From an uncultured Pelagibacteraceae bacterium (lineage in GTDB: Bacteria > Pseudomonadota > Alphaproteobacteria > Pelagibacterales > Pelagibacteraceae), in assembly GCA_902611145.1 (NCBI GenBank), contig CACLYO010000003.1, forward strand, positions 1 through 64,000: a stretch of 64,000 nt of DNA, in the 5' to 3' direction. The notes beneath the pieces are model-generated. The model did not search any database and was not told the DNA's origin. It saw nothing but the letters and a program-made list of their open reading frames with translations. Below, piece after piece: positions 6,794 to 35,061 of the stretch (position 1 is the first letter of the stretch; each line of letters starts with the position of its first letter). The position numbers and the translations under genes are program-made.

Positions 6794-9046
6794 TTAAAAG
6801 ACTTTATTTAATTCTATATTTGCTTCCCTTGCATTTCCTATATTTGTTAAATCATCATTTAAATTAAAGCTTAAATTAAAACCATTTATATCTTTCTTAA
6901 TTTCAAATTTCGACATTAAATTTTCTGAACCATTTATTTTAAAAGCGTACTCAGTATCTTTGTTTGGTAGATAACCTAAAGCAATATGAATATTATCAGT
7001 ATGTCCATAATCTAAAGCTTGGTTTCTTTCGTAAATAATAAAAATACTATAATTTTCTGGAAAAACTATATCGATACCAATTTCACCATTAATGTTATGA
7101 AAAGCGGCAGGATTTAACTTTGTGTTAAAAGCTTTGGAAGTATCAGAAACATATGTGTATTTGAGATTTGATGAACGTTTTAAATTAGCTTGATATTCTA
7201 ATTTCCCATGTCTCTTAATAGAGTGCCTTTCATTTTCTAAGTCATGTACGGCTGCAACTGTTGCTCTTAAATGTCTTGTTTTTACATGTTGTTTTTCAAC
7301 ACTTATTGCCCCTAAACCTACTTCATCATAAGCATTTAATATTGTATGCCCAAAATCTATTTGGCTAGATGGAATTATTGTTAATTTATTTTTTTTAATT
7401 TCATCTTTAATTTTAACAGTACCATACATTTGTTTTCCTCTTCTATTTGCAGTTACATGTTCTCCATCCATTACTGATAAAATGTCTGTTTTAATTTTTC
7501 CAATTCCAATAATGGTATCAATATACTTAGTGTCTATCTCAGATGGTCTAGTATTATAAAAAGTAAGGTTATATGTGTCTGCATCTAAATTACTTCCTGC
7601 ATCACCAACATCAGTATTATCCCTTCCATATCTAAAGGCTAATCCTACAATACCATTATTTTCAGTAAATTTATCTGCACCCAATGTTAAAGAATTAGTT
7701 TCAATCTCTTTTGATGATGAAACACTAGTATCACCCATTCTTCCAACTGCAATACTTCCTTCACTCCAATAAAATACATCTTGTTTTTTATCTTTTGTAT
7801 TTTTTTTAGCAGCTGAAGTTCTAACTACTTCAGTAAGAGAGGCTAGTATTTGATTTGAAAAATTAAGATTAATGTTAAGGTTCGTTAAATTTTGTTTATC
7901 TTTATTTCTTCTTATCCATTTTAATCTATTTAAAGTAGAGTTTGTTGAACGTTCAATAGTTCTTCTTGCAAGTTCTATTTGAGCTTCTGCCATTCCGGTT
8001 TTATCACTATTTTCTGTAATAGAAGGACAATTTCCTGAGATAATATTAAAAGGACAAACTAAATCAAATTCAGTAATATCATCATTATCATCGTCACCTA
8101 CATACATTTTTAATCCATTAGCACTGAATGAAATTCCTCTTGGTTGATCTAAAGCACTATCTAAATCAGGTAAATAAACTCGTCCATCTATAGTATATGA
8201 AGACGTATCATATGCGACATTAAGAGAAATTTGAGTAACATCTTTACCTGAAGCCGCATTGTTATGATCAACAAGAAAAAGTCTTTTTCCGTTTGCACTA
8301 AATCTCATTGTGTTTGGATTTGAAACTTCATCTTCTAATTCTATTCCAGCATTTGTATTAAGTGAAATTGTAGTTAAGTCGTATGGAGTTGAAAGTTGAT
8401 ACTCAAGAAGTCTAGTATTAGGTGAATGTGTGGCATTGGCTCCATGAAAAATTAAAAATAATTTTGTTCCATCATCATTAATTTCCATACCTTGAAGTCG
8501 ATTATCATTTGAAGTACCATCAGCAATAGTTACACTCCCAGCTTCACTATTATTTTGTAAGGCATCAGTTTCAAGCAGAGGAGTTTCATGTGCAAAAGAG
8601 CATGTTGAAATATCAAAGGGTGAAGTTAAGTCAAACCTAAATACTATATCTACTCTTGATCTTGCACCTGAATTTTTAGTGTTTGAACCCTGCGCTAGAA
8701 ACAGTTTCATCCCATCACTGCTAAATTCTAAATCATATAAACCAAGGAGTGAAAATTCAGGACCACTTAATACACATCTTTCATCATCTCCAGCATAAAC
8801 CCTTGTAGAAATGTCAAAAGGCGTAGTTAAGTTGTATTCATTTAGAGCTTTAGTACTCTCCCCTGTAGCATTACCACCATAACTTGCGAACATTTTTGTT
8901 CCATCTTTATTAAATTCAATACCTTGTATGACATCATTGCTATCAGTGAATTGTGTTGTTTGTACAAAAGTAACCATACCTGCAAAAGAATTGGAAATAG
9001 GAAATAGTAAAAACAATATGATTAATATTTTTTTAATTAAAAACAT
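6794..9046 (-). CDS. Autotransporter-like outer membrane protein with N-terminal propeller-like repeats
   Basis: Signal peptide; repeated blades IEFNKDGTKMFASY / LEFSSDGMKLFLAQ / MEINDDGTKLFLIF / MRFSANGKRLFLVD / ISFSANGLKMYVGD each followed by YNLTTPFDIST-type segment; C-terminal beta-barrel-like alternation ending in ...NIELNKVF. Confidence 0.75.
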   Translation of the reverse strand: MFLIKKILIILFLLFPISNSFAGMVTFVQTTQFTDSNDVIQGIEFNKDGTKMFASYGGNATGESTKALNEYNLTTPFDISTRVYAGDDERCVLSGPEFSLLGLYDLEFSSDGMKLFLAQGSNTKNSGARSRVDIVFRFDLTSPFDISTCSFAHETPLLETDALQNNSEAGSVTIADGTSNDNRLQGMEINDDGTKLFLIFHGANATHSPNTRLLEYQLSTPYDLTTISLNTNAGIELEDEVSNPNTMRFSANGKRLFLVDHNNAASGKDVTQISLNVAYDTSSYTIDGRVYLPDLDSALDQPRGISFSANGLKMYVGDDDNDDITEFDLVCPFNIISGNCPSITENSDKTGMAEAQIELARRTIERSTNSTLNRLKWIRRNKDKQNLTNLNINLNFSNQILASLTEVVRTSAAKKNTKDKKQDVFYWSEGSIAVGRMGDTSVSSSKEIETNSLTLGADKFTENNGIVGLAFRYGRDNTDVGDAGSNLDADTYNLTFYNTRPSEIDTKYIDTIIGIGKIKTDILSVMDGEHVTANRRGKQMYGTVKIKDEIKKNKLTIIPSSQIDFGHTILNAYDEVGLGAISVEKQHVKTRHLRATVAAVHDLENERHSIKRHGKLEYQANLKRSSNLKYTYVSDTSKAFNTKLNPAAFHNINGEIGIDIVFPENYSIFIIYERNQALDYGHTDNIHIALGYLPNKDTEYAFKINGSENLMSKFEIKKDINGFNLSFNLNDDLTNIGNAREANIELNKVF

Positions 9047-10921: not shown

Positions 10922-11332
10922 CTATTTTTTTAAATCTTCATATATCTTTGCTGCCCATTTTTGAGCTTCTTGAGAAGTGACATGAAAGTCATATTTTTCA
11001 GGCTTTATGAACATTTGATTGGTATCTTCAAATCTACCTTTTTGGATAGTGTCTACCCAAACTACATAGTCTGCTGGAAATAAATTTCTTGCTGCTGGTG
11101 TTGGACAAATAAAATCTGCTATTACATTATTTCCTTCACTTTTTAATTTAAGTGCAGCTTCTGCCATTCTTTTTGATTGTCTTATTCTACCTTCTTCTGA
11201 AAAGTCCCAGTCGTTTGCAGCTTTTCTAATTTCATCTGCATTTAATCTTTTTGCTTTTATTAATTTTGCTAGCTCACTTGCTAAAGTTGTTTTGCCAGCC
11301 CCAGGCAATCCCATAATTAAAATTATTTTCAT
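10922..11332 (-). CDS. P-loop kinase, adenylylsulfate-kinase-like
   Basis: MKIILIMGLPGAGKTTLASELAKLI Walker A; LNADEIRKAANDWDFSEEGRIRQSKRMAEAALKL, VVWVDTIQKGRFEDTNQMF as in CysC-like kinases. Confidence 0.8.
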   Translation of the reverse strand: MKIILIMGLPGAGKTTLASELAKLIKAKRLNADEIRKAANDWDFSEEGRIRQSKRMAEAALKLKSEGNNVIADFICPTPAARNLFPADYVVWVDTIQKGRFEDTNQMFIKPEKYDFHVTSQEAQKWAAKIYEDLKK

Positions 11333-12567
11333 TAAATATCTTCTAATGGATGATGGGACATTAATTCAAGGTTATTTTCACCAACTACGTATTGTTGTTC
11401 AAGTTTAACCCCTTCTTTGCCCCCTACTTTGCCAATATAACTCTCAAGTGTAATGGTCATATTTTTTTCAAAATGACCTTCTCTTTGTCCACCATCGGTT
11501 GGATATTTTATCTGTGGCCACTCATCACAAAGGCCAATTCCATGAAGCACGCAGGAGTATCTATTTCCATAATATTCTTCAGGTAGTTTCCAAGATTTTT
11601 CAGTAAATTCTTTAAAAGATGTTCCAGGTTTTATTAATCTATAATTATGATTAATTTGTTCGACAGCCATTTGATATAATTTTTTTTGATCATCATTAAA
11701 TTTGTGACCTTCAACATATGTTCTTGAGATATCCGCACAATAACCATAGGGACCAACCATATCAGTATCGAAAGAAACAATTTCACCTCTTTGAATTATT
11801 TTATTACTGCTTTCTTGCATCCAAGGATTTGTCCTTTCTCCTGAAGATAAAATTCTACATTCAATCCACTCGCCACCATGCTCAATATTAGTTTTGTGCA
11901 AAATAGACCAAAGTTCATCTTCTGTCATACCAGCTTTTAGTTCGTTACGCATTTTTGAAACACCAATTTCAGCGACCTCTAAAGCAGCCTTCATACATTT
12001 TAGTTCTTCAGGTGATTTAATAACTCTTGCTTGCTCTAGAATTAATTTAGCATCTACTACTTCTATTCCAGATTCATTTAATGATGTAACAGCAGGACCA
12101 TTAATGACATCAATTGCTATTTTTTTACTTTTGAAATACGAATTTGATAAGTCTTTAATTTCGTTAATCCATTTTTTTAATTGAGTACCTGCTTGATCTC
12201 CATTGCTAAAATAATCCCATGTAATTGCTGGTCTTATCTCATCGATTAAATTTAAATGTTTCGATAATATTTCACAATTGAAATACTCATATAGTATTGT
12301 TGGTCCACTTACTGGAACAAAACAGTATCTTGTTAAATTATGCATATTGTAAACACTCATGTTTACAGTGTCTAAAGCATATCTAATATTTACAGGATCA
12401 AATAATATACAAGCTTCTAAATTATTTTTTTCTAATTCTTTTTTAACTCTATCCAATCTATAAGATCTAAGTTTCTGAAAGTTAATTTCATCTTCTCTTA
12501 ATCTTTTTTTGGTAATAAAATTTACTTTTGATTTTGCACTAGGTGTAATTTTTCTATTAAATTTCAT
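11332..12567 (-). CDS. M24 metallopeptidase-fold protein, DddP-like DMSP lyase candidate
   Basis: ILSSGERTNPWMQESSNKIIQRGEIVSFDTDMVGPYGYCADISRTYVEG, VLHGIGLCDEWPQIKYP, TLESYIG, KLEQQYV; resembles DddP with the six metal-ligand positions (D,D,D,H,E,E) apparently present. Confidence 0.72.
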   Translation of the reverse strand: MKFNRKITPSAKSKVNFITKKRLREDEINFQKLRSYRLDRVKKELEKNNLEACILFDPVNIRYALDTVNMSVYNMHNLTRYCFVPVSGPTILYEYFNCEILSKHLNLIDEIRPAITWDYFSNGDQAGTQLKKWINEIKDLSNSYFKSKKIAIDVINGPAVTSLNESGIEVVDAKLILEQARVIKSPEELKCMKAALEVAEIGVSKMRNELKAGMTEDELWSILHKTNIEHGGEWIECRILSSGERTNPWMQESSNKIIQRGEIVSFDTDMVGPYGYCADISRTYVEGHKFNDDQKKLYQMAVEQINHNYRLIKPGTSFKEFTEKSWKLPEEYYGNRYSCVLHGIGLCDEWPQIKYPTDGGQREGHFEKNMTITLESYIGKVGGKEGVKLEQQYVVGENNLELMSHHPLEDI

Positions 12568-13745: not shown

Positions 13746-14374
13746 TACTTAATAACCTCATAAATACCTAGCCAAGCATTTACATCTTTACTTGCTATAT
13801 AATCCGATTTAAAAAATTCTATTTCTTTCCACTTATTATCTTTATTTAATTGAGCAATTTTTTTATCAAAACCATATTCTTCATGAATTCCTTCATTGAT
13901 TGTAAAACAAATTAGTCCTTTATTTTTTGTTATTCTTATAAATTCATCCAATGCAGGTGGTTTTACATGGCCAAAGGTGAATGTTCCTACACACATAACA
14001 GCATCAAATATATTATCTTTTTCTTGAATGGGCTTATTTAAATCTACTTTTTCTAATTTTTGATAAAGACCTTGTGGAACTAAATCTAAGAGTTTTTGAG
14101 ACAGATCAGCTCCATAAAAATTATTGTAACCATACTTTTTTAATTCAACAGCAACCAATCCTGTGCCACAACCAGCATCATAAATTTTAGCATCTTTGTT
14201 TTTATTATGTTTTATAAAAACTTCTGAAGTTTCTTTTGGACCTGTATAATTCCAATCAACCATATCTTTATCGTACTTATTTCCTTCACCCCACTCGTCA
14301 TAATATTTCATAACCTCTTCGGTTTTTTTAAGTTTATAAATTGGAACCTTGTTACCTACATCTTTTTGTGCCAT
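13745..14374 (-). CDS. Class I SAM-dependent methyltransferase
   Basis: AKIYDAGCGTGLVAVELKKYGYNNFYGADLSQKLLDL motif I and FDAVMCVGTFTFGHV. Confidence 0.85.
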   Translation of the reverse strand: MAQKDVGNKVPIYKLKKTEEVMKYYDEWGEGNKYDKDMVDWNYTGPKETSEVFIKHNKNKDAKIYDAGCGTGLVAVELKKYGYNNFYGADLSQKLLDLVPQGLYQKLEKVDLNKPIQEKDNIFDAVMCVGTFTFGHVKPPALDEFIRITKNKGLICFTINEGIHEEYGFDKKIAQLNKDNKWKEIEFFKSDYIASKDVNAWLGIYEVIK

Positions 14375-16779
14375 TAACTTCTCATTTTCTGTCCACTTGG
14401 ATCGTAAAGTGGATCTTTAATTATTGAACAATTAAACATATCTCCATTAATTTCGACTTGAATTTTTTTATCAGAATTTAAATCCTTTGTATCCAAATAT
14501 GACAATGCAACACTTTTGTTAACAAAATGAGCAAATCCACCGGAAGTAACATAGCCAATACTTTTATCACCTTTCATAACAGCTTCGTTGTAAGTTACAT
14601 CGATATCGTTAGTTTCTACAATTAATGGTGTAATTTTGTGTTTGCTATCATCTTTTTTAGCTGAATCTTTTCCAATAAATTCTTTATCCCAATTAATAAA
14701 TATATCTAACCCAGTTTCTTTTGCTGTAAAATCAGGTCTATAATCAAGAGTCCATGCACCCCAATTTTTTTCTAGTCTCATTGACATTAAAGCTCTTGAT
14801 CCAAAAGGTTTTATATTAAATTCTTTCCCAGCTTCTGTTAATTCTTCATATAACTTAATAAGATAATGTGGAGCAACATAAATTTCGTAACCCAATTCTC
14901 CAGTAAATGATATTCTATTAACTATAGATGGCACACCAGCAACATACATTTTTCTTGAGTCTCTGAACTTGAATTTATTATTTGAAACATCTTCTCTAAC
15001 AATTTTTTGAAGAAGATCTCTTGATTTAGGTCCTGCAATGCCTATTCCGTGTAATTCATCAGATCGATTTTTATAACTTAAATTAAATTTACCCATATGT
15101 GTTTCAAACCATCTTCTGTGCATTTCTTGTGCTGCACCTGATCCAAAAATCATAAATTCATTTTCATCCATGCATGCAACAGTTAGATCGCCATAAAGTT
15201 TTCCTTTTTTTGTTAGCATTGGTGTTAATGAAATTCTTCCAGGTTTTGGTATTCTTCCTGCCATAACATAGTCTAAAAATTTTCTTGCATCTGGCCCCTT
15301 AAACTCATGTTTTGAAAAGTTTGCAACTTCGATTGCTCCGACATTTTCTCTTACATTAATTACTTCTTTTGAAACATAATTATGTGATCTAGATCTTTTT
15401 ATCGTAGGTTCTTCATGAGCATCTTCTTTATTTTTCGCAAACCATAAAACACTTTCTAAGCCAAAAGAGTCACCCATTACTGCACCTTGGTTTACAAAGC
15501 GATCATATAATGCGGTAGTTTTTTGTTTTCTACCTTTCGGTAAAGTTTCATTTGGAAATGTCATTATGAATCTTCTTTCGTAATTTTCTGATGATTTAAT
15601 TGTTCCATATTGAGGAGATGCATAATCTCCAAACCTTGCCACATCCATTGCCCAAACATCAATTGATGGTTCGCCATCTATTATCCATTCTGCTAAACAT
15701 TTACCAACACCTCCGCCTTGGCAAAAACCAGCCATAACACCTACAGCTACCCAGTAGTTTTTCATTCCTGGAACAGGACCTATTAATGGGCTGCCGTCTG
15801 GTCCAAAAGTGAAAGGACCATTTACAATATTTTTTATACCTGCTTTTTCTAAAGCTGGCATTCTTTCAAAACCAATTGCTAACCTGTCTTGAATGTTATC
15901 TAACTTTGGTTGTAAAAGTTCATGACCAAAGTTCATAGGAGTTCCTTCAACCTTCCAAGGTGTAGATTTTTGCTCGTATGTCCCTAGCAACATTCCTTTA
16001 CCTTCTTGTCTAAAATAAATATTACCTTCAAAGTCTGTTCCAATTGGTAGTCTTTGATCACCCAAGGCTTCTATTTCTGGAATCGCTTCAGTAATTAAAT
16101 AATGATGTTCCATTGGTTGAACCGGTAAATTTAACCCAGCTAATTTACCGACTTCCCTTGCCCATAAACCTCCAGCATTAATAACTATTTCAGCATTAAT
16201 ATTTCCTTTGTCTGTTACAACGTCCCATGAACCATCTTTTTTTTGTTTTGTATCTTTAACAACAGTGTGAGTATAATATTTACCTCCATGAACTTTAGCG
16301 GCTTTAGCAAATGCATAAGTAACTCCTGATGGATCGACCTCTCCATCTATTGGATCCCATAACGCTAAAAGATATCTAGAAGGATCTATTAGTGGATTTT
16401 TCTTTTTAACTTCTTCAAGTGAAATAAACTCTTGGTCTAAACCCATATATCTTGCTTTTGATCTTTCTCTTTTAAGATATTCAGCCCAAACATCGTTTGA
16501 AGCTAAGTAAAATCCTCCACTCGGTTTAAATCCACAAGAATGTCCTGACTCTTTTTCTATTTCTTTATAAAGACCAATTGTGTAAGCCATCATTCTAGAG
16601 ATATTTGGATCGGATGAAATTACATGAACATTTCCAGCTGCATGCCAAGAAGATCCTGAGGTTAATTCATTCCTCTCTATAAGAATACAATCTTTTAATC
16701 CAAATTTAGAAAGGTGGTACAGAATTGAACATCCAACTACACCACCTCCAACAATTACTACTTTTGCATGGCTTTCCAT
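14374..16779 (-). CDS. Dimethylglycine/sarcosine dehydrogenase-like FAD + GcvT two-domain protein
   Basis: KVVIVGGGVVGCSILYHLSKFGLKDCILIERNELTSGSSWHAAG; INAGGLWAREVGKLAGLNLPVQPMEHHYLIT; C-terminal GcvT-type SFTGELGYEIYVAPHYLIKLYEEL. Confidence 0.88.
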   Translation of the reverse strand: MESHAKVVIVGGGVVGCSILYHLSKFGLKDCILIERNELTSGSSWHAAGNVHVISSDPNISRMMAYTIGLYKEIEKESGHSCGFKPSGGFYLASNDVWAEYLKRERSKARYMGLDQEFISLEEVKKKNPLIDPSRYLLALWDPIDGEVDPSGVTYAFAKAAKVHGGKYYTHTVVKDTKQKKDGSWDVVTDKGNINAEIVINAGGLWAREVGKLAGLNLPVQPMEHHYLITEAIPEIEALGDQRLPIGTDFEGNIYFRQEGKGMLLGTYEQKSTPWKVEGTPMNFGHELLQPKLDNIQDRLAIGFERMPALEKAGIKNIVNGPFTFGPDGSPLIGPVPGMKNYWVAVGVMAGFCQGGGVGKCLAEWIIDGEPSIDVWAMDVARFGDYASPQYGTIKSSENYERRFIMTFPNETLPKGRKQKTTALYDRFVNQGAVMGDSFGLESVLWFAKNKEDAHEEPTIKRSRSHNYVSKEVINVRENVGAIEVANFSKHEFKGPDARKFLDYVMAGRIPKPGRISLTPMLTKKGKLYGDLTVACMDENEFMIFGSGAAQEMHRRWFETHMGKFNLSYKNRSDELHGIGIAGPKSRDLLQKIVREDVSNNKFKFRDSRKMYVAGVPSIVNRISFTGELGYEIYVAPHYLIKLYEELTEAGKEFNIKPFGSRALMSMRLEKNWGAWTLDYRPDFTAKETGLDIFINWDKEFIGKDSAKKDDSKHKITPLIVETNDIDVTYNEAVMKGDKSIGYVTSGGFAHFVNKSVALSYLDTKDLNSDKKIQVEINGDMFNCSIIKDPLYDPSGQKMRS

Positions 16780-16788
16780 AATTAAGAA

Positions 16789-17835
16789 CTAATATTTTTT
16801 ACTCATACTAGTGTTTATATCTAAAAAAGATTTATCTTTACCATGAAGCCAATGTCTACTCATATCTGGATAATATTTATATGAGATCGGTTTTCTGCCT
16901 AGAGCAACTGCCATTTCTCTAACATGATGAGGTTCAGCTCCACAACAAATTCCAATAAGATTTATTTTTTGTTTTTCACAATCTTTTGCAAACTCAGCCA
17001 TTTCAAATCTGTTGCAATATAAATTATCCAAGGCAACAGGAAATGCATTGCCTCCAGGAATACAATCGCATCCATGATCGGTTTGATTTAAAAAACCTGG
17101 CTGTTCTTCAGTAGTCCTGTAAGGAACTGGTAAAGCAGCAACATGACAAGAAACTTTTTTTCTTATTTCAGGTAAAAGTTTCATTGTCATTTTTGGTCCT
17201 CTATAACAATTTAGACCAACTACATCAGAACCAAAATCCTCCATTATTTTACAAGCTTCACCAGGTGTATGCCCTTCTCTAGTTTTGTCACCTTTTTTAA
17301 TTGAGAAATTAGTTACAGCAATTAGACCTTCATCTTTAATTGCTTTTAAAGCAATTTTCATTTCCTCAGTCCAATTTATTGTTTCTGCAACAATAAAATC
17401 TACTCCGGCTTCCTTTGCCCATGCAACTTGTTCTTCGTACATCTTTTGACAATCTGAATGACTTTTTTTATCGCTTGGGTCATAAATATTTGTATTAGCA
17501 ACATCACCACAAACTAAAAGATCAAGATCTTTAAATTCATCTCTTGCATCTTTAGCAATCTGTAATGCATTCTTTTGCAATGGTTCTAATAATTCCTCTT
17601 TACCAATTAAGCGTAATTTTTCTCTATGTCCATAGTAAGTAAATGCTTGCACTACGTCTGAACCAGCTCTTATAAACTCTCTATGTAATTGAGAAACTAC
17701 CTCAGGATGTTCTAAAACAACTTCAGGTACAAATGCTCCGGCTGATAAATATCCTCTTCTTTCCATTGCAAACAAATAACCTTCTGCAAAAAGAACAGGG
17801 CCCTCGTTAAGTCTTGTTATTAAATCTTTTTTCAT
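16789..17835 (-). CDS. bhmT: Betaine-homocysteine S-methyltransferase family
   Basis: GPVLFAEGYLFAMERRGYLSAGAFVPEVVLEHPEVV, VVGLNCYRGP, LIGICCGAEPHHVREMA zinc-Cys motifs of homocysteine methyltransferases. Confidence 0.85.
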   Translation of the reverse strand: MKKDLITRLNEGPVLFAEGYLFAMERRGYLSAGAFVPEVVLEHPEVVSQLHREFIRAGSDVVQAFTYYGHREKLRLIGKEELLEPLQKNALQIAKDARDEFKDLDLLVCGDVANTNIYDPSDKKSHSDCQKMYEEQVAWAKEAGVDFIVAETINWTEEMKIALKAIKDEGLIAVTNFSIKKGDKTREGHTPGEACKIMEDFGSDVVGLNCYRGPKMTMKLLPEIRKKVSCHVAALPVPYRTTEEQPGFLNQTDHGCDCIPGGNAFPVALDNLYCNRFEMAEFAKDCEKQKINLIGICCGAEPHHVREMAVALGRKPISYKYYPDMSRHWLHGKDKSFLDINTSMSKKY

Positions 17836-18141: not shown

Positions 18142-19161
18142 ATGAAAATAAAAAGAATAATACTTTCTGCTCTTGTAATATTAGGTTTCACTTCTTTTAG
18201 TGGAATTGCTAATGCAGGATGCGGAAAATTAGTTATTGCTGAGCAGAACTGGGCTTCTGCTGAATTAATGGCTAACGTAGATAAGATTATCCTTGAGAAA
18301 GGTTATGGTTGTGAGGTTGAACTTATACCAGGAGCAACTATGCCTACTTTTACTTCAATGGATGAAAAAGGTGAGCCAGACATGAACCCTGAACAATGGG
18401 CTAATGCTGTTTACACTCCTTTAAAAAAAGCAGTTTCAGAGAAAAGATTAATCATAGCAAACCAAGCTCCTATTACTGGTCTTGGTGAAGGTTGGTGGAT
18501 AACTCCAGGAACTGTTAAAAAACATCCGAAAATAAAAGGAATGACTGCAATGGAAATTTTAGAACATCCAGAGTGGTTTCCGTCAAAAGAAGATCCTTCA
18601 AAAGGAGCTTTTGTTGGTTGTCCTGCAGGATGGGGATGTCAATTAGCTAACGCAAACCTTTTTAGAGCATTTGAAATGGAGAAAAAAGGTTGGGTATTAA
18701 TCGATCCAGGTTCTGCAGCAGGTTTAGATGGTACAATATCTAAAGCAGCTGACTCTGGAAGTCCTTGGTTTGGTTACTATTGGAACCCAACATCAATGGT
18801 TGGAAAATATAGTTTAATTTCAGTGGATTTTGGTGTGAAGTTTCACAGCAGAGACAACTGGGATAACTGTATAACTTTAGCTGAACAAGATTGTGCAGAT
18901 CCTAAACCAACTGCATGGACTAAGTCTGAAGTTAATTCAATTGTTACTGCAAACTTTGCAAAAACTGGAGGAAAAGACGCTTTGAATTATGTTAAAAAGC
19001 GAACTTACCCAGGTGATGTAATGAACGGAATGCTTGTGTACATGGCTGACAATCAAGCTAAAGGTTCAGATGCAGCAATTGAGTTTTTAAAACAGCATGA
19101 AGGTGTCTGGGGTAAATGGGTATCTGGAGCCGCTAAGAAAAAAATCAAAGCTGGTCTTTAA
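18142..19161 (+). CDS. Glycine betaine/proline-type ABC transporter substrate-binding protein
   Basis: Signal peptide ...GIANAGCGKLVIAEQNWASAELMANVDKIILEKGYGCEVELIPG; GEGWWITPGTVKK; OpuAC/ProX-like. Confidence 0.88.
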   Translation: MKIKRIILSALVILGFTSFSGIANAGCGKLVIAEQNWASAELMANVDKIILEKGYGCEVELIPGATMPTFTSMDEKGEPDMNPEQWANAVYTPLKKAVSEKRLIIANQAPITGLGEGWWITPGTVKKHPKIKGMTAMEILEHPEWFPSKEDPSKGAFVGCPAGWGCQLANANLFRAFEMEKKGWVLIDPGSAAGLDGTISKAADSGSPWFGYYWNPTSMVGKYSLISVDFGVKFHSRDNWDNCITLAEQDCADPKPTAWTKSEVNSIVTANFAKTGGKDALNYVKKRTYPGDVMNGMLVYMADNQAKGSDAAIEFLKQHEGVWGKWVSGAAKKKIKAGL

Positions 19162-19173
19162 AATATAATTTAT

Positions 19174-19216
19174 TTTAACGAGCCTATTTTATTATAGGCT
19201 CGTTAATTTTTTTTTT
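19174..19216 (+). terminator. Intrinsic terminator-like hairpin between substrate-binding and permease genes
   Basis: ttaacgagccta-(8 nt)-taggctcgttaa perfect 12-bp stem followed by a run of T. Confidence 0.85.
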
Positions 19217-19225
19217 TGGAATTAT

Positions 19226-20110
19226 ATGGAATTTTTAACAAAATTTCCCGTGATGGAACGTACTTCCCTAATGGAATTAAGAAAAGGGATTGATCATACG
19301 TTTAGAGATTTTTCTAGAGCTTACGGTGATAGTATTGAAGCTTTTTTTGATCCATTATTATTTTTTTTAATAAGATTGGAAAAATTATTATTAGCTACAC
19401 CTTGGCCAATAATACTATTGGTACTTGGTGCATTAGCTTGGCTAGGTTCAAGAAGCTGGAAACTTGTAATTGGAAGTGTGGTTGCTTTTATGTTGATTGG
19501 ATACTTTGGTATGTGGAAAGATTGTATGGCAACAGTAGCAATTATAACTGTATGTACAATTATGTGTATAGCTGTTGGAATACCTTTAGGAGTATTCATG
19601 GCAAGATCTAACAGATTTGAAAGAGCAATGCTTCCTGTCTTAGATATGATGCAAACTATTCCTAGTTTTGTCTATTTAATTCCAATTTTAATGTTACTTG
19701 GTATAGGAAAAATTCCTGGTTTAATTGCTGTTTGCATATATGCAATTCCACCTGTAATTAGATTAACAAATTTAGGAATAAGAGAAGTTGATAAAGAAAC
19801 AATAGAAGCTAGTGAAGCTTTTGGTGCTACTAAACTTCAAAAGTTAAAAAGTGTCCAAATACCTTTAGCTCTTCCAACTGTTTTTGCTGGCGTAAACCAA
19901 ACAATAATGATGGCTTTAGCTATGGTTGTAATAGCATCCATGATTGGAGTTAAAGGCCTAGGTGTTCCAATTCTGAGAGCTATATCAAACCAATATTTAG
20001 CTTTGGGATTGTTTAATGGGTTAGCTATTGTAGCTCTGGCCATTATCTTTGATAGAATCACTCAAGAATATGGTCGAAGAATACAAAAGCACAGGGGCAT
20101 AAAAAGATAA
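19226..20110 (+). CDS. Glycine betaine/proline-type ABC transporter permease (ProW-like)
   Basis: Multiple TM segments and EAA loop REVDKETIEASEAFGATKLQKLKSVQIPLALPTVFAGVNQTIMMALAMVVIASMIGVKGLG. Confidence 0.88.
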   Translation: MEFLTKFPVMERTSLMELRKGIDHTFRDFSRAYGDSIEAFFDPLLFFLIRLEKLLLATPWPIILLVLGALAWLGSRSWKLVIGSVVAFMLIGYFGMWKDCMATVAIITVCTIMCIAVGIPLGVFMARSNRFERAMLPVLDMMQTIPSFVYLIPILMLLGIGKIPGLIAVCIYAIPPVIRLTNLGIREVDKETIEASEAFGATKLQKLKSVQIPLALPTVFAGVNQTIMMALAMVVIASMIGVKGLGVPILRAISNQYLALGLFNGLAIVALAIIFDRITQEYGRRIQKHRGIKR

Positions 20111-20173: not shown

Positions 20174-20902
20174 ATGAATTTTTCTTTGGAAATTGGACCT
20201 AAAACTGACCTCGATACTTTGCCAGCTTTAAAGGATGTATATATAACTATGCTCCCTGGTGGTGATTATAAAGACACTGCTGAACAAGCTTCTAAATTAG
20301 TCAAAAAAGGCTTGAATCCTATACCTCATTTCCCCGCCAGATCTATTGAAAATGATGTTCAGCTCAAAGAATATGTTTCTAGATGTAAGGATGTGGGGGT
20401 TAAGCAGGTCCTGGTTATTGGAGGAAGTAGAGAACCTATTGGAAGTTTTGACAGCTCAATTCAAATTTTAGAGACAGGTTATTTTGAGCAGATGAAGATA
20501 GGAATCGCTGGACATCCGGAGGGGAGTCCTGATATATCCGATTCAAAACTAGAAAAAGCTATGAAAGATAAAAAGCCTTATGCTGACTATATAGTAACAC
20601 AATGGTTACTAGACTCTCAGAAAATAATAGACTTTATTTCTAAACAAACAATACCAGTTCATGTTGGAATTACTGGGCCACTTAAAATAACTAGCCTAAT
20701 TAAGTTTGCTAATATTGTAGGAGCAAAAAATTCCCTAAATTTTCTTAAATCTAATTTTAGTAAGGCATTAGATTTAATGAGACCTAAAGACCCAAATGAT
20801 TTAATAGGGAAAGTTAAATCGCATACAGATTTTTTCCACATTTATACATTCGGCGGCTTGAAGGAAACAAACAAGTGGTTGATGGAGAACAAATATGTCT
20901 AA
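20174..20902 (+). CDS. Methylenetetrahydrofolate reductase (MetF)-like protein
   Basis: FSLEIGPKT; GLNPIPHFPARSIENDVQLKEYV; VLVIGGSREP; KIGIAGHPEGSPD; ADYIVTQWLLDSQKI - MTHFR barrel motifs. Confidence 0.8.
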   Translation: MNFSLEIGPKTDLDTLPALKDVYITMLPGGDYKDTAEQASKLVKKGLNPIPHFPARSIENDVQLKEYVSRCKDVGVKQVLVIGGSREPIGSFDSSIQILETGYFEQMKIGIAGHPEGSPDISDSKLEKAMKDKKPYADYIVTQWLLDSQKIIDFISKQTIPVHVGITGPLKITSLIKFANIVGAKNSLNFLKSNFSKALDLMRPKDPNDLIGKVKSHTDFFHIYTFGGLKETNKWLMENKYV

Positions 20903-22253
20903 TGAATTTGACTATACTAAGTTAAAACATGTAACTTCAGTTGATCAATCTGATCGTGAAGTTCCATATAATTTAAGACAAAGTGGGCCTACAAAAGTTG
21001 AGATGTTGATTTCAACAAGAGTAAGAAAGTCACCTTACTGGCATTTATCAATGCAAGCAGGTTGTTGGAGAGCAACAGTTTATAATCGAATTTATCATCC
21101 TAGAGGATATGTAAAACCAGAAGATGGTGGAGCGATGGTAGAGTATGATGCAATCGTTAATCATGTAACAATGTGGAATGTTGCTGTTGAAAGACAAATT
21201 AGAGTTAAAGGTCCTGATGCAGAAAAATTTACTGATTATGTAATAACTAGAGATGCTACAAAAATTTCACCTATGAGAGCTAGATATGTAATATTATGTA
21301 ATCAATATGGTGGAGTTTTAAATGATCCAATTCTTCTTAGAATTTCAAAAGATGAATTTTGGTTTTCGCTTTCAGACTCTGATATTGGTATGTATCTACA
21401 AGGTGTTAATGCTGATGGAAGATTTAATTGTAGAGTAGAAGAAATTGACGCTTGTCCCGTACAAATTCAAGGTCCTAAATCAAAAGCTTTAATGAAAGAT
21501 TTACTTGGTGATCAAGTTGACTTAGATAATATGCCTTTTTATGGACTAGCAGAAGTTAAGGTTGCTGGAAGAAGTTGTGTGATTTCACAATCAGGTTTCT
21601 CAGGCGAAGCTGGCTATGAAATATATTTAAGAAATGCAACTTTGTATGCTGAAGATATGTGGAACGCTGTACTTGAAGCAGGAAAAAAACATAAACTGAT
21701 GGTAATTGCACCCGCACACCATCGAAGAATACAAGCTGGAATACTATCTTGGGGTCAAGATATGGATACAGAACATAATCCTTTTCAATGTAATCTTGGT
21801 TATCAAGTTTCTTTATCTGGTAAAGGTGAATGGAATAAAAAAACTGATTATATTGGAAAAACTGTATTAGAAAAAATGAAAGCTGATATTAAAGCAGGAA
21901 AAAAACCATACAAACTTCAGTTAGTAGGTCTCGAGTTAGGCGGAAAACCAATTGAAGAATATGCTCCTGATTTTTGGTTAATTTCACATGCAGATGGTGG
22001 AGATCCAGTTGGATTTATTACATCTCCTTGGTATCACCCTGAAAAAAAACAAAATATAGCAATGGGGTATGTGCCATTTGATGGAACATTAAATGCTAAT
22101 GGTTTACCTAAAGGTAAAGTTGGAACTAAATACAAAGTTCATTTACCTGCTAAATATTCTGAAACTCCAGGTACTCCTGTTGATGCAGTAGTAGTGGATA
22201 TTCCTTTTAAACAGTCATTCAACGCCAATACTAGAGAAGTTGTAAAAGGATAA
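20895..22253 (+). CDS. GcvT/DmdA/LigM-superfamily folate-dependent aminomethyl- or demethylase-like protein
   Basis: VTMWNVAVERQIRVKGPDAEKFTDYVITRD, VQIQGPKSKALMKDLLGDQV, SQSGFSGEAGYEIYLR, AGILSWGQDMDTEHNPFQCNLGYQVSL; 8-nt overlap with upstream MetF-like gene. Confidence 0.82.
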   Translation: MSNEFDYTKLKHVTSVDQSDREVPYNLRQSGPTKVEMLISTRVRKSPYWHLSMQAGCWRATVYNRIYHPRGYVKPEDGGAMVEYDAIVNHVTMWNVAVERQIRVKGPDAEKFTDYVITRDATKISPMRARYVILCNQYGGVLNDPILLRISKDEFWFSLSDSDIGMYLQGVNADGRFNCRVEEIDACPVQIQGPKSKALMKDLLGDQVDLDNMPFYGLAEVKVAGRSCVISQSGFSGEAGYEIYLRNATLYAEDMWNAVLEAGKKHKLMVIAPAHHRRIQAGILSWGQDMDTEHNPFQCNLGYQVSLSGKGEWNKKTDYIGKTVLEKMKADIKAGKKPYKLQLVGLELGGKPIEEYAPDFWLISHADGGDPVGFITSPWYHPEKKQNIAMGYVPFDGTLNANGLPKGKVGTKYKVHLPAKYSETPGTPVDAVVVDIPFKQSFNANTREVVKG

Positions 22254-29860: not shown

Positions 29861-30448
29861 CTAAATATTTTTATAACCAAACTCTAAACAAGCATCTGTT
29901 ACCGAATGATATAAAGATTCTCCAAAGCTTCTAAGAGCAAATAATCTTATTTTTGTTGGGTTATCATAAATAATGTCTATTGTAATTGTAATTCCATTAA
30001 ATACAGAATTTATACAAATATTTTTCTCAATTTCGTTAAAATTAAATGGACATCCTTTTTTTAATACTTCTATTGAATTTTTGCCCTCTAATTCAATTAT
30101 TGCTCTTGAATGTGATAAATCAGTAACAGCAAAATCACTATCTTTAAAATCATTTTGTATATTTTTTAAAATTTCCTTTTTTTTTGAGATTAATAACCAG
30201 TTATTAGGTCCAGCCCATAAAATTCTTGTATCTTTATTGCTAGTTACTTTAAGCGGCTCGCTGCTTAAATTAAGCCCATCAATCGTTATCTCTTTTAAAG
30301 AAACATTTGATTTTTTATATTGCACTACCTGAGCTATTAATAAATTCTTTATTTCAGAAATTTTAATTAAATCTTTTTGTTCTTTAGATTCATGTTCGCC
30401 AAAAAGGCCTTTTTTATGAAAATTTTCTAATACAGATATTGATGTCAT
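29861..30448 (-). CDS. Sarcosine oxidase/N-methylglutamate dehydrogenase gamma-type subunit
   Basis: RILWAGPNNWLLIS, FAVTDLSHSRAIIELEGKNSIEVLKKGCPFN, RLFALRSFGESLYHSVTDA; last gene of soxBDAG-type set. Confidence 0.8.
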   Translation of the reverse strand: MTSISVLENFHKKGLFGEHESKEQKDLIKISEIKNLLIAQVVQYKKSNVSLKEITIDGLNLSSEPLKVTSNKDTRILWAGPNNWLLISKKKEILKNIQNDFKDSDFAVTDLSHSRAIIELEGKNSIEVLKKGCPFNFNEIEKNICINSVFNGITITIDIIYDNPTKIRLFALRSFGESLYHSVTDACLEFGYKNI

Positions 30449-33441
30449 GATCTTACTCTTTCTCCTTTTGGATCCACATAATGAGATGAAACAATTTCAA
30501 CAGGTATTGATTTATTCTTTACTGGGCATAAAGCAAACAACTTTTTTCCAATCATATTTTTTCCATCCTTTAGAATAGCAAGTGAGAAAGGATTGTTATA
30601 CTCAACACTCCAACACGAAGCAGAAATATGACCTAGTTTTGGATTTGGTAGTATTGCATTTGCGTCTTTAACTAAATGGGATCCTTCTGGAATACTTGTT
30701 TTTTTATCAAGCGGAACAACACCGACCACTTTTTGTCTATCTTTTGCTATAAATGCCTTTCTATTTAAAGATCTTTTACCAATAAAATCTTTCTTTTTAC
30801 TAACCAATCCATCTAAACCATTATCATAAGGAATCGTTCTGCCATCTAATTCTGATCCTGCAACATGTCCCATCTCTATTCTTAATGTGGATAAAGCTTC
30901 AGTTCCATATGGTTGAATTGCAAATTCTTTACCTATTTCAATTATTTTTTCCCACATAAAATTACCATTGTCAGACTCAACATTTACTTCATAAGCAAGT
31001 TCTCCTGAAAAAGAAATTCTAAAAATTCTTGCTGGAATACCAAATAAGTTGCTTTCTAAATATCCCATAAATGGCAAACCTTCATTCGAAACATTTATAT
31101 CAGGAAATAATTTTTGTAATAAATTTCTTGATTTTGGTCCAGCTATAGCGGCTCCAGCCCACTGTTCAGTAGTTGAGACAACATTTACATTTAATTCTGG
31201 CCAAACTATTTGTAAATAATATTCCAAATGAGATAAAACATTTGCAGCTTGTGCGGTAGTAGTGGTCATGTGATAGTGATGTTCTGAAATTCTTGTTGTT
31301 GTTCCATCATCCATTACTATTCCGTCTTCTCTTAGCATAACTCCGTATCTTGCTTTTCCGACCGGTAACTTTAACCAAGCATTTGTATAAACTCTATTTA
31401 AAAATTCTGCTGCGTCAGGACCTTTTACATCAATTTTTCCTAATGTAGTTACATCACAGACTCCAACATTTTTTCTTACATTTTCAGCTTCTCTTTTTGA
31501 AGCTTCAAACAAACCTTCATTACCTTTTTTATAATATCTTGGTCTTAACCAAATGCCAGCATCAACAAAAACAGCATTATGTTTTTCATGCCATGAATGC
31601 ATCGGTGATTTTCTTGTTGGTTTAGAATGTTTACCAATTTCTCTTCCGACAATTGCACCAATAGAAACAGGAGTATAAGGCGGTCTAAACGTTGTATGTC
31701 CTACAGAAGGTACTATTTTATTTTCGATACTTGAAACAAGCTGTAATCCATTAAGGTTACTTGTTTTTCCTTGGTCAGTTGCCATTCCTAAAGTTGTATA
31801 CCTTTTTACATGTTCTATTGATCTGTATCCTTCTCTAATAGCAAGCTCCACATCAGAAACTGTTACATCGTTTTGAAAATCTAAAAATCTTTTATAATTT
31901 TTTTCTTTTGGAAGTGGAACGCACCAAAATTTATCATGTTGAGTAAATTTTTTTTCAGAAACTTGGGGGACTGAAATTTTATTATCTTTATTTGTTATTT
32001 TTTTTGATATTTCATGACCTTTTTCAAACGCTGTTATTAAAGTTTTCTCTAAGGAAAATATTCCATTAGCGGAGCCAACTGTTGTTTCATTTTGTTTTGA
32101 TTTACCTGGAACAAAGGCATCTATTTCTTCATTAAATTTAGTTTTATTACCTGATTGAGAAGCTAAATGTATTGTTGGAGTCCAAAATCCTGAAACACAT
32201 ATACAGTCACAGTTTATATTTTCAATTTTACCCAAGTCTTTTTTATCTTCAGAAATATTTGCTATTTCAGCAAAATTTACTTTTTTATAACCTTTCGCAG
32301 CAACTACCACATAAGAAAATTTCATTTCGATTCCCATATTTTTTGCTTCACTAATTATTTCAGACTCTGGATTTTTTCTTGTGTCTAATATTATTGGGTT
32401 AATATTATTTTTTTTAAATTCGATTGCAGTTTCGTACGCACTATCATTGTTTGTAAATATTAAAGGTTTTTTACCAACTAAAACTCCATAAACTTTTAAA
32501 TATTCCTTAGCTGCAGATGCTAAAACTACTCCCGGAGTATCGTTGTTTCCAAAAACAATTGGTCTTTCTATTGATCCGGTTGAAATTATAACTTCTTTTG
32601 CTCTAATGTACCAAAGTCTTTGTTTTGGAGTATATTTTTTTGATTTTGGTAAATGATCACTTAATCTTTCTGACATAACAAGCATATTATGATCGTAGTA
32701 GCCAAAAACTTGAGCTCTATTTTTTACTGTCACATTAGGCATTTCTTTAAGTTCAGCTATTATATTGTCTGCCCAATCTTTTCCATTTTGATTTCCAATA
32801 CTCACTTCACTGGTTAATAAACTTCCACCAAATCTTGATTTATCTTCAGCTAATATTACTCTTGCGCCATTTTTTGCTGCAGCATATGCACTTGCCAAAC
32901 CAGAAGGGCCCGAACCAGTAATTAATAAATCACAATATTCATATTTGTGTTCGTATCTTTCATTGTCATGTTTTGTAGATACCACCCCAAATCCGGCTGC
33001 CTTTCTAATAAATGGCTCGTAAATTTTGTACCAAAAACTTTTTGGCCACATAAATGTTTTGTAATAAAAACCTGCTGGAAGAAATTTATTCAAAAAATTA
33101 TTTATTGCTCCAATATCAAAATTTACACTTGGCCAACAATTTAAACTTTTTGCTTCTAATCCTTCAAAAAGTTCTTGCTCGGTCGCTCTAACATTTGGTT
33201 CTGTTTCGTTATTTCTATATAATTGAACCATAGCATATGGTTCATCTACTCCTGCTCCAAAGAAACCTCTTGGCCTATGATACTTAAAACTTCTTCCAAT
33301 AAGATGAACGCCATTTGCAATTAATGCAGAGGCAAGTGTGTCCCCCTCGTAACCAAAATATTTTTTGCCATTAAATTTAAAAGAAATTTTTTTGTCTCTA
33401 TTAACTAAACCTATTTTATCTAATCTAAATTCTTCTGACAT
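30445..33441 (-). CDS. Sarcosine oxidase/N-methylglutamate dehydrogenase alpha-type subunit (998 aa)
   Basis: FKFNGKKYFGYEGDTLASALIANGVHLIGRSFKYHRPRG, CDLLITGSGPSGLASAYAAAKNGARVILAED, C-terminal GcvT domain FSGELAYEVNV. Confidence 0.93.
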   Translation of the reverse strand: MSEEFRLDKIGLVNRDKKISFKFNGKKYFGYEGDTLASALIANGVHLIGRSFKYHRPRGFFGAGVDEPYAMVQLYRNNETEPNVRATEQELFEGLEAKSLNCWPSVNFDIGAINNFLNKFLPAGFYYKTFMWPKSFWYKIYEPFIRKAAGFGVVSTKHDNERYEHKYEYCDLLITGSGPSGLASAYAAAKNGARVILAEDKSRFGGSLLTSEVSIGNQNGKDWADNIIAELKEMPNVTVKNRAQVFGYYDHNMLVMSERLSDHLPKSKKYTPKQRLWYIRAKEVIISTGSIERPIVFGNNDTPGVVLASAAKEYLKVYGVLVGKKPLIFTNNDSAYETAIEFKKNNINPIILDTRKNPESEIISEAKNMGIEMKFSYVVVAAKGYKKVNFAEIANISEDKKDLGKIENINCDCICVSGFWTPTIHLASQSGNKTKFNEEIDAFVPGKSKQNETTVGSANGIFSLEKTLITAFEKGHEISKKITNKDNKISVPQVSEKKFTQHDKFWCVPLPKEKNYKRFLDFQNDVTVSDVELAIREGYRSIEHVKRYTTLGMATDQGKTSNLNGLQLVSSIENKIVPSVGHTTFRPPYTPVSIGAIVGREIGKHSKPTRKSPMHSWHEKHNAVFVDAGIWLRPRYYKKGNEGLFEASKREAENVRKNVGVCDVTTLGKIDVKGPDAAEFLNRVYTNAWLKLPVGKARYGVMLREDGIVMDDGTTTRISEHHYHMTTTTAQAANVLSHLEYYLQIVWPELNVNVVSTTEQWAGAAIAGPKSRNLLQKLFPDINVSNEGLPFMGYLESNLFGIPARIFRISFSGELAYEVNVESDNGNFMWEKIIEIGKEFAIQPYGTEALSTLRIEMGHVAGSELDGRTIPYDNGLDGLVSKKKDFIGKRSLNRKAFIAKDRQKVVGVVPLDKKTSIPEGSHLVKDANAILPNPKLGHISASCWSVEYNNPFSLAILKDGKNMIGKKLFALCPVKNKSIPVEIVSSHYVDPKGERVRS

Positions 33442-33443
33442 AA

Positions 33444-33710
33444 CTAAATATCTTCATTAACTTTTGATGTTTTAAAAATTTCGTGTGTTGCTGTATCTCT
33501 TTCAACTTTAATCCATTGTCTACATCCTGAAATATGATGCCAAAGCTCTACGTGTTTTCCTCTTGGACTTTTTCTTAAATATACAAAAGTATCCCACTCT
33601 TTATCTGACACTTCTTTGTTTAAATCAGGTCTTTTAACTGTTCCATCTCCACCATATGAAAATTCATTTTGTGATCTTAATCCGCAGTGTGGACATTTAA
33701 TATGTAGCAT
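33444..33710 (-). CDS. Sarcosine oxidase/N-methylglutamate dehydrogenase delta-type subunit
   Basis: HIKCPHCGLRSQNEFSYGGDG, WHHISGCRQWIKVERDTATHEI (zinc Cys, SoxD motifs). Confidence 0.92.
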   Translation of the reverse strand: MLHIKCPHCGLRSQNEFSYGGDGTVKRPDLNKEVSDKEWDTFVYLRKSPRGKHVELWHHISGCRQWIKVERDTATHEIFKTSKVNEDI

Positions 33711-34967
33711 TTATGAAATCCAAGTTTTTGTACCAAGGCCTTTTTCATCAATTAAATTACCGGTGTTAAATCTATTTAAACTAAATCCAGCATTTAATTC
33801 ATGAACTCTATCTTGAGCTATTGTGTGAGCAAAGGTCCAACCCGACACGGGTGTTGCTTTAAAACCTCCATAACACCAACCACAATTTAAATATAATCCA
33901 TCGATATGAGTTTTATCTATGATTGGAGAACCATCCATAGACATATCCATGATACCTCCCCAAGTTCTTAACATTTTAAGTTTACTTAGAAATGGAAGCA
34001 TTGCGATTCCTTCTGTTAAGACATGTTGTAAAGTTGGTAAATTTCCTCTTTGAGCATAACTATTGTATCCATCCAAATCTCCACCCATTACCATTTCTCC
34101 TTTGTCAGATTGACTACAATAAAAATGTCCAGCGCCAAAAGTAACAACATGATCTAATATTGGCTTAATTGGTTCTGAAACACACGCTTGTAACAAATGA
34201 GTTTCTATTGGCAAAGTTATGTTTAGCATTTCAGCAAGAATAGATGTGCTTCCTGCTACACACAAACCAATTTTTTTTGCTTTAATATTTCCCCTTGATG
34301 TTTTTATTCCTTTTATTTTTCCATTAGCTACATCAAATCCAGTTACTTCACAGTGTTGAATAATGTCTACTCCCATTGAGTCTGCTTGTCTTGCATAACC
34401 CCAAGCAACTGCATCATGTCTAGCAGTTCCTCCGCTTGGCTGCATTAAGCCACCAAAAATTGGAAATCTTACATTTTCAGAAAAATCTAACATTGGAACT
34501 AATTTTTTTACTTCTTCTCTTCCTAAAAGCACGGCATCAATTCCATTTAATCTCATAGAATTTCCTCTTCTTGTATAAGCATTCATTTGTGCATCTGAAT
34601 GAGCAAGATTAATTATTCCTCTTGGAGAATACATCACATTAAAATTTAGATCCTGACTCATACTTCTCCATAAATCCATACCTTTTTCATAGAACATACC
34701 ATTTTCATCGTGCATATAATTTGATCTAAGGATTGTTGTATTTCTTCCAACATTGCCTCCGCCTATCCATCCTTTTTCAATGATAGCGACATTTGTAATA
34801 TTATGTTCTTTGGCAAGATAATAAGCAGTAGCCAAACCATGGCCTCCACCCCCTATAATTATAACTTCATACTCAGCTTTTGGAGTTGGATCTTTCCAAG
34901 CTACTTCCCAATCTTTATGACCTTTGAAAGCATTTTTTATAAGGCTGAATACAGAATATTTTTGCAT
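33711..34967 (-). CDS. Sarcosine oxidase/N-methylglutamate dehydrogenase beta-type subunit
   Basis: YEVIIIGGGGHGLATAYYLAKEHNITNVAIIEKGWIGGGNVGRNTTILRSNY. Confidence 0.93.
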   Translation of the reverse strand: MQKYSVFSLIKNAFKGHKDWEVAWKDPTPKAEYEVIIIGGGGHGLATAYYLAKEHNITNVAIIEKGWIGGGNVGRNTTILRSNYMHDENGMFYEKGMDLWRSMSQDLNFNVMYSPRGIINLAHSDAQMNAYTRRGNSMRLNGIDAVLLGREEVKKLVPMLDFSENVRFPIFGGLMQPSGGTARHDAVAWGYARQADSMGVDIIQHCEVTGFDVANGKIKGIKTSRGNIKAKKIGLCVAGSTSILAEMLNITLPIETHLLQACVSEPIKPILDHVVTFGAGHFYCSQSDKGEMVMGGDLDGYNSYAQRGNLPTLQHVLTEGIAMLPFLSKLKMLRTWGGIMDMSMDGSPIIDKTHIDGLYLNCGWCYGGFKATPVSGWTFAHTIAQDRVHELNAGFSLNRFNTGNLIDEKGLGTKTWIS

Positions 34968-35061
34968 ATTATATTTTTTTAAGTGTAATTTATTTCTTTA
35001 AAAATTAAATAATAAAGTATAGAAATCTCAACCATAATTACAAACTTTAATAAGATTGAAA

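Follow-up and report, generated by a model that had tools for sequence, protein, structure and literature searches.

Glycine betaine is a common osmolyte, and among the described enzymes that remove its first methyl group, both BHMT and GbcAB convert it to dimethylglycine, which is also the step proposed below for a protein of the GcvT/DmdA superfamily. However, BHMT uses homocysteine as the methyl acceptor and is bound to methionine demand, and GbcAB consumes O2 and releases formaldehyde (PMC12478193). In Ruegeria pomeroyi, the MtgBCD system places the betaine methyl on THF and a second MetF (MetF2), whose gene adjoins that of MtgD, carries out its oxidation (PMC12478193); however, MtgBCD needs cobalamin. 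Another described arrangement is that of LigM/DesA with MetF in Sphingobium SYK-6, where a THF-dependent demethylase has a methyl-THF-oxidising MTHFR as its partner, and according to a 2026 review the SYK-6 enzyme belongs to an MTHFR subfamily which prefers this oxidation and has coevolved with LigM (PMC13001107). According to the latest published view that was found, reliance on BHMT as a single enzyme is confined to SAR11, whose betaine demethylation is thereby coupled to the synthesis of methionine (PMC12478193). The reported oxidation of betaine methyls to CO2 is not easily accounted for by BHMT alone. For the oceanic SAR11 bacteria, Sun et al. (2011) described the gene metF (SAR11_1264) and, next to it, SAR11_1265, which encodes an aminomethyltransferase closely related to DmdA whose function was then unknown, and they speculated that this enzyme takes off the second methyl group during the degradation of DMSP, viz. 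that of MMPA (PMC3160333). Both of these genes were among those whose expression changed most relative to exponential growth in a 2016 study of sulfur limitation (PMC5069961). The gene order of SAR11_1264 and SAR11_1265 in Pelagibacter is the same as that of the gene pair described here, and, judged by gene names, adjacency and kinship to DmdA, the two pairs are almost certainly orthologous. The adjacency of the pair has been known since 2011, and what is new in the present work is the comparative evidence concerning its substrate. A literature search found no description of a GcvT plus MTHFR operon with a demethylase, and in the titles, abstracts, targeted look-ups and open-licence full texts covered by it no betaine demethylase of the THF-dependent or aminomethyltransferase type was described.

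The window, i.e. the whole stretch of 64,000 nucleotides that was analysed, comes from an uncultured Pelagibacteraceae bacterium, and those of its features which the comparison needs are given below, with the label GCVT* used here for the 452-aa protein of 20895-22253.

14374-16779, minus strand: FAD enzyme of the DMGDH/SarDH family with a GcvT domain of its own (Pfam DAO, FAO_M, GCV_T and GCV_T_C)
16789-17835, minus strand: BHMT-like homocysteine S-methyltransferase (Pfam S-methyl_trans, 149 bits; sole PF02574 match in the genome)
18142-19161, plus strand: substrate-binding protein (OpuAC type) of an ABC transporter for betaine (Pfam OpuAC, 152.8 bits)
19226-20110, plus strand: permease of the OpuAB/ChoW/ProW type (257-272 bits with NCBIfam models of choline/betaine permeases, which is below cut-off)
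20174-20902, plus strand: MetF', a short MTHFR-like ORF of 242 aa (ORF call, Pfam MTHFR)
20895-22253, plus strand: GCVT*, a GcvT/DmdA-superfamily ORF of 452 aa (ORF call, Pfam GCV_T and GCV_T_C)
29861-34967, minus strand: SoxA, SoxB and a SoxG-like ORF of the sarcosine-oxidase type (ORFs; GcvT domain of SoxA via PF01571; SoxG-like label by position and size only)
35056-36750, plus strand: formate-THF ligase Fhs (ORF; homologous to Fhs-like genes adjoining GCVT* in the loci L147-L149)
46920-49247, plus strand: true TMAO demethylase (1138 bits, cut-off 1100)

The initial annotation had placed a 242-aa and a 452-aa ORF with an 8-nt overlap at this locus, and both ORFs are confirmed. The Pfam MTHFR score of MetF' is 27.1 bits, just above the cut-off of 24, and GCVT* shows a GCV_T match of 137.9 bits, which is above the cut-off, together with GCV_T_C. 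The fhs gene, which had been put at 13 kb from the pair, is located about 12.8 kb away. With regard to gcvP, of which none had been noted nearby, SoxA is the only ORF in the window as large as an intact gcvP. With regard to the betaine-type transporter ahead of the pair, its presence in the window is borne out by the genes of OpuAC/OpuAB type, but it is not a general trait of SAR11, many of which carry other genes at this place. Further upstream of the pair the SAR11 loci vary: some of them contain OpuAC-OpuAB with BHMT or DMGDH, and in others the place upstream of MetF is taken by the gene of a Rieske oxygenase or by different genes. No ATPase gene adjoins the OpuAC and OpuAB genes of the window (18142-20110). 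A true DmdA is present in the source genome (570 bits, cut-off 410) and, given the true TMAO demethylase at 46920-49247, several methylated-osmolyte pathways lie side by side in the window. An M24 protein encoded at 11332-12567 on the minus strand resembles the DMSP lyase DddP (352 bits, below the cut-off of 600), and its gene adjoins those of a Rieske oxygenase, a methyltransferase and the DMGDH and BHMT-like enzymes. A 750-aa ORF at 6794-9046 (minus strand) has no NCBIfam match at an E value of 1e-20, and a scan of the window with Rfam at gathering thresholds gave no match.

The gene for MetF is found directly 5' of GCVT* in all of the 80 SAR11 loci that were sampled, with an overlap of either 8 or 14 nt. 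The coupling of these genes, noted initially for this one stretch, is thus a feature of every SAR11 locus sampled, and its retention in 80 of 80 loci excludes a chance arrangement; the two genes probably form one transcriptional unit. The linkage of MetF and GCVT* also recurs in other lineages, where the gene orders are different. In the source genome, which is 84% complete, MetF' is the only MTHFR that was found.

In terms of family placement, GCVT* scores 228.5 bits with the DmdA model NF009133 (cut-off 410), 151, 133 and 117 bits with the GcvT models (cut-offs 300, 235.85 and 459, respectively), and 147 bits with the model NF053776 for TMAO demethylase, a two-domain protein (cut-off 1100). 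It is more remote from LigM (36 bits, cut-off 580) and DesA (45 bits, cut-off 800), with which the fold of its predicted model also agrees less (TM about 0.59) and from which it differs in the proposed substrate. As all of these scores are below the NCBIfam cut-offs, the identification of GCVT* as DmdA, GcvT, TMAO demethylase, LigM or DesA is ruled out, and the earlier statement that it is not the GcvT of glycine cleavage holds for every GcvT model. The phylogeny that had been called for at that stage places GCVT* outside of DmdA: in a tree built by maximum likelihood from 54 sequences, which took in DmdA and the GcvT-like domains at the C-termini of DMGDH, SoxA and TDM and left out LigM, DesA and free-standing GcvT, GCVT* forms a clade of its own with 100/100 support, separated from all of these groups, and it is adjoined by one basal relative (L023). 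Orthologues of GCVT* are found in Alpha- and Gammaproteobacteria (62-92% identity) and on haloarchaeal megaplasmids (51-58% identity); the scan of contigs returned only Pelagibacteraceae, and the other lineages were found by a genome search and in a plasmid collection. A viral scan gave one short contig fragment, at 88% identity, which is probably cellular. The genome G016, from which L023 comes, contains four relatives of the GcvT/DmdA type (L023, L033, L039 and L040), which are possibly further demethylases, and an MTHFR of the MetF' type lies near L033 on the same contig (G016:C83).

The AF2 model of GCVT* has a mean pLDDT of 82.9, with its first 39 residues poorly predicted, and the alignment behind it leaves out the sequences from plasmid records. 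The closest solved structure to this model is that of DmdA (3tfh; TM 0.92 by target and 0.76 by query), followed by GcvT. The residues Y131, D144, E242 and Y244 of GCVT* align with Y95, D108, E204 and Y206 of DmdA, which we take to be active-site positions and putatively folate-binding, and all four are kept, D144 and E242 being invariant. GCVT* thus combines a GCV_T domain above the Pfam cut-off with the conserved Asp and Glu of a THF enzyme of this superfamily. With DmdA it shares the fold and the pattern of the THF site, and methyl transfer to THF is proposed for both. However, the identity between them is only 24-36%, their clades are separate and their gene neighbours differ. In addition, the position of W197 in DmdA, presumably also part of the active site, is occupied in GCVT* by an invariant phenylalanine (F235), and an N-terminal motif (VDQSDR..P.NLRQ.G), which is nearly invariant from SAR11 to haloarchaea, is absent from DmdA.

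The partner protein MetF' has a single sequence match in the PDB, viz. 7xg9/7xlf (E value 5e-33), of which we take 7xg9 to be the MTHFR of SYK-6. A profile built from the MTHFRs linked to GCVT* scores 246 bits with 7xg9 and at most 66 bits with all other MTHFR structures, and MetF' is accordingly nearer in sequence to the SYK-6 type than to canonical MTHFR. The analogy with LigM that was drawn in the initial annotation is apt in this respect, as an MTHFR of this type is described as having coevolved with LigM. In 289 alphaproteobacterial genomes a gap in the scores divides the MetF' subfamily from canonical MetF, and the subfamily is present in 10 of 13 genomes that have GCVT* or L023 as compared to 42 of 276 others (Fisher p 3e-6); when SAR11 and L023 are left out, the numbers are 7 of 10 and 43 of 276 (p 3e-4). 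Three genomes with GCVT* (G120, G184 and G258) are without an MTHFR of the MetF' type, and this counts against the betaine reading. Because the MetF' type is also found in genomes without GCVT*, it probably serves several demethylases. SAR11 are reported to lack MetE, MetH and MtgBCDE (PMC12478193), and 5-methyl-THF is therefore not known to serve the synthesis of methionine in these organisms, which favours its oxidation. MetF' would then run in the oxidative direction, from 5-methyl-THF to 5,10-methylene-THF, a role like the one proposed for MetF2 of R. pomeroyi as that is described. In the 20 SAR11 sequences matching a motif search, S or G takes the place of the aspartate of a GGD motif that several MetF'-type relatives show.

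If these different observations are considered together, then the pair of MetF' and GCVT* is very probably a methyl-THF-forming demethylase of some kind, as the initial annotation had suggested in proposing such an enzyme with a dedicated MTHFR; the clade outside of DmdA, the GcvT scores below cut-off and the linkage in 80 of 80 loci all support this. A redox-neutral methyl transfer is suggested by the kinship to DmdA and by the type of the MTHFR, whereas glycine betaine as the methyl donor is suggested by the gene context. Based on sequence and gene context, our main reading, to which we give a probability of roughly 0.6, is that GCVT* transfers a methyl group from glycine betaine to THF with no need of cobalamin or O2, and that MetF' is its dedicated methyl-THF oxidase. 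In the reaction envisaged, THF and glycine betaine would bind in the GcvT-type cavity of GCVT*, with THF held as in DmdA and GcvT, and N5 of THF would take one methyl group from the quaternary nitrogen of glycine betaine. The products would be dimethylglycine and 5-methyl-THF, formed without cobalamin, O2 or homocysteine, and the overlapping MetF' would turn the latter into 5,10-methylene-THF. This compound could then be oxidised by FolD, Fhs and formate dehydrogenase or be used by GlyA for the formation of serine from glycine, and dimethylglycine would be converted to glycine by DMGDH/SarDH or sarcosine-oxidase enzymes. GCVT* is probably a demethylase of the GcvT/DmdA superfamily and not a new class of system.

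The evidence regarding the substrate comes largely from the genes found next to GCVT* outside of SAR11. In one gammaproteobacterial cluster (G443) the order of the genes is GCVT*, MetF, Fhs, GbdR, SdaA (an L-serine dehydratase) and DMGDH, and GCVT*, MetF, Fhs and DMGDH are laid out in the same manner in G409. The GbdR of G443 scores 500.8 bits (cut-off 480), and the signals to which this regulator responds in Pseudomonas are glycine betaine and dimethylglycine. In G030 and G259, a single run of genes contains GCVT*, MetF, an enzyme of the DMGDH family and homologues of the SoxA and SoxB of the window. On haloarchaeal plasmids, GCVT* is accompanied by MetF, GlyA or FolD, Fhs, formate dehydrogenase and a BCCT transporter, as well as by DMGDH-like FAD oxidoreductases with GcvT domains and a threonine/serine ammonia-lyase (IlvA), not every one of these genes being present in every stretch viewed. 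Between them, these neighbours would form a route that leads from glycine betaine to pyruvate and CO2. Its first step has no apparent candidate other than GCVT* in three of the four clusters viewed, and the fourth, that of H. marismortui, contains a Rieske gene as well. A DMGDH-family gene is located within about 11 kb of GCVT* in 11 of 14 non-SAR11 proteobacterial genomes, where 0.2 would be expected (7 of 10 if each genus is counted once). Genes of betaine catabolism or uptake (GbdR, SdaA, DMGDH, GlyA, IlvA, BCCT, Sox and OpuA) are thus seen beside GCVT* in unrelated lineages. Two observations of the same kind count against betaine, viz. that DMGDH is not near GCVT* in G028, G120 and G641, and that a divergent copy of GCVT* in Haloarcula halophila is without such neighbours. 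Further, gene context of this kind shows a pathway and not a reaction.

The distribution of the known first-step enzymes bears on the same question. Of 16 genomes with GCVT*, GbcA is above cut-off in one (G641), an MTTB/MtgB-family protein is present in one and absent from the other 15, a BHMT homologue (at least 47% identity) is present in six, and nine have none of these three. An enzyme of the DMGDH/SarDH family is found in all 16. Absence from a single draft genome is weak evidence, although most of these genomes are more than 90% complete. In a sample of 77 near-complete SAR11-family genomes, GCVT* is present in 52, a BHMT homologue in 24 and both in 20, so that 32 of the 52 with GCVT* are without a close BHMT homologue. 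The source genome itself has a BHMT-like gene, and this, like the GbcA of G641, counts against the betaine reading. Rieske proteins below threshold are present in most of the genomes with GCVT*, and another oxygenase route may therefore exist. In many SAR11, a divergently oriented Rieske oxygenase gene adjoins MetF (e.g. 10461-11690 in L041, and many among L067-L130). The score of the encoded protein falls well short of the GbcA cut-off, and this protein may be either a partner of GCVT* or an alternative to it.

The proposal that all betaine demethylation is carried out by the Rieske oxygenase and BHMT, with GCVT*-MetF acting on an unrelated substrate or in regulation, agrees with the position of the Rieske gene next to MetF in many SAR11 and in H. 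marismortui, where this oxygenase could perform the first betaine step, and with the BHMT-like gene in the window. However, many genomes with GCVT* are without BHMT, the Rieske proteins in them are far below the GbcA cut-off, and the linkage of GCVT* with DMGDH is also seen in clusters without a Rieske gene; we regard this explanation as the least probable of those considered. Hardly better placed is the suggestion that GCVT* is a trans-acting aminomethyltransferase for DMGDH/SarDH or sarcosine oxidase, which would pass iminium products into 5,10-methylene-THF with no methyl transfer. The superfamily fold and the methylene-level products of the neighbouring dehydrogenases are consistent with such a role, but these dehydrogenases have GcvT-type C-terminal domains of their own, and the MTHFR, which acts on methyl-THF in organisms reported to lack the methionine synthases and MtgBCDE noted above, would be left without a role.

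Two other possibilities retain the methyl transfer to THF and differ only in the methyl donor. If GCVT* acted on another quaternary amine, such as choline, carnitine, proline betaine, homarine or a similar compound, then the evidence from the mechanism and the MTHFR would be identical, and transporters of the betaine type accept several betaines. However, the serine dehydratase, GlyA, GbdR and DMGDH neighbours best fit a route in which glycine betaine is converted to glycine and this to serine, and genes specific to other betaines do not recur across the lineages viewed, and we consider a donor of this kind unlikely; for homarine, the literature search gave no relevant paper. The earlier speculation that SAR11_1265 demethylates MMPA, which may be extended to other sulfonium or thioether compounds of DMSP breakdown and to oxidation of the methyl-THF by the same MTHFR, is improbable to about the same degree as the trans-acting aminomethyltransferase. 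It would account for the kinship of GCVT* with DmdA in score, tree and fold, and DMSP and betaine share transporters; yet the clusters elsewhere hold the betaine genes GbdR, SdaA, DMGDH, GlyA and IlvA, no dmdBCD genes adjoin GCVT* in the clusters viewed, unlike the DmdA locus of Phaeobacter, and haloarchaea are unlikely to use MMPA. None of these explanations fits the haloarchaeal and G443 clusters as well as glycine betaine does.

If glycine betaine is indeed the substrate, then a demethylase that is linked to THF and equipped with a methyl-THF oxidase would close the gap left by the SAR11 without BHMT and by the oxidation of betaine methyls to CO2, and it would likely supply the first step of haloarchaeal betaine catabolism. 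A clade annotated so far only as glycine cleavage T protein would gain a function, and a B12- and O2-free route that is missing from current descriptions of betaine breakdown would be added. The broader statement, that GCVT* demethylates betaine without cobalamin, oxygen or homocysteine and that this allows SAR11, haloarchaea and a variety of proteobacteria to gain energy by burning betaine methyls independently of methionine demand, is on balance favoured, if held slightly less firmly than the main reading.

A widespread clade of DmdA-like proteins of 380 aa was also observed (7971-9113 in L138, and L024-L037), two members of which, at 376-381 bits, are just under the DmdA cut-off of 410. On the Phaeobacter plasmid pP88_b, the gene for such a 380-aa protein is followed by genes for OsmC, an enoyl-CoA hydratase and an acyl-CoA synthetase.
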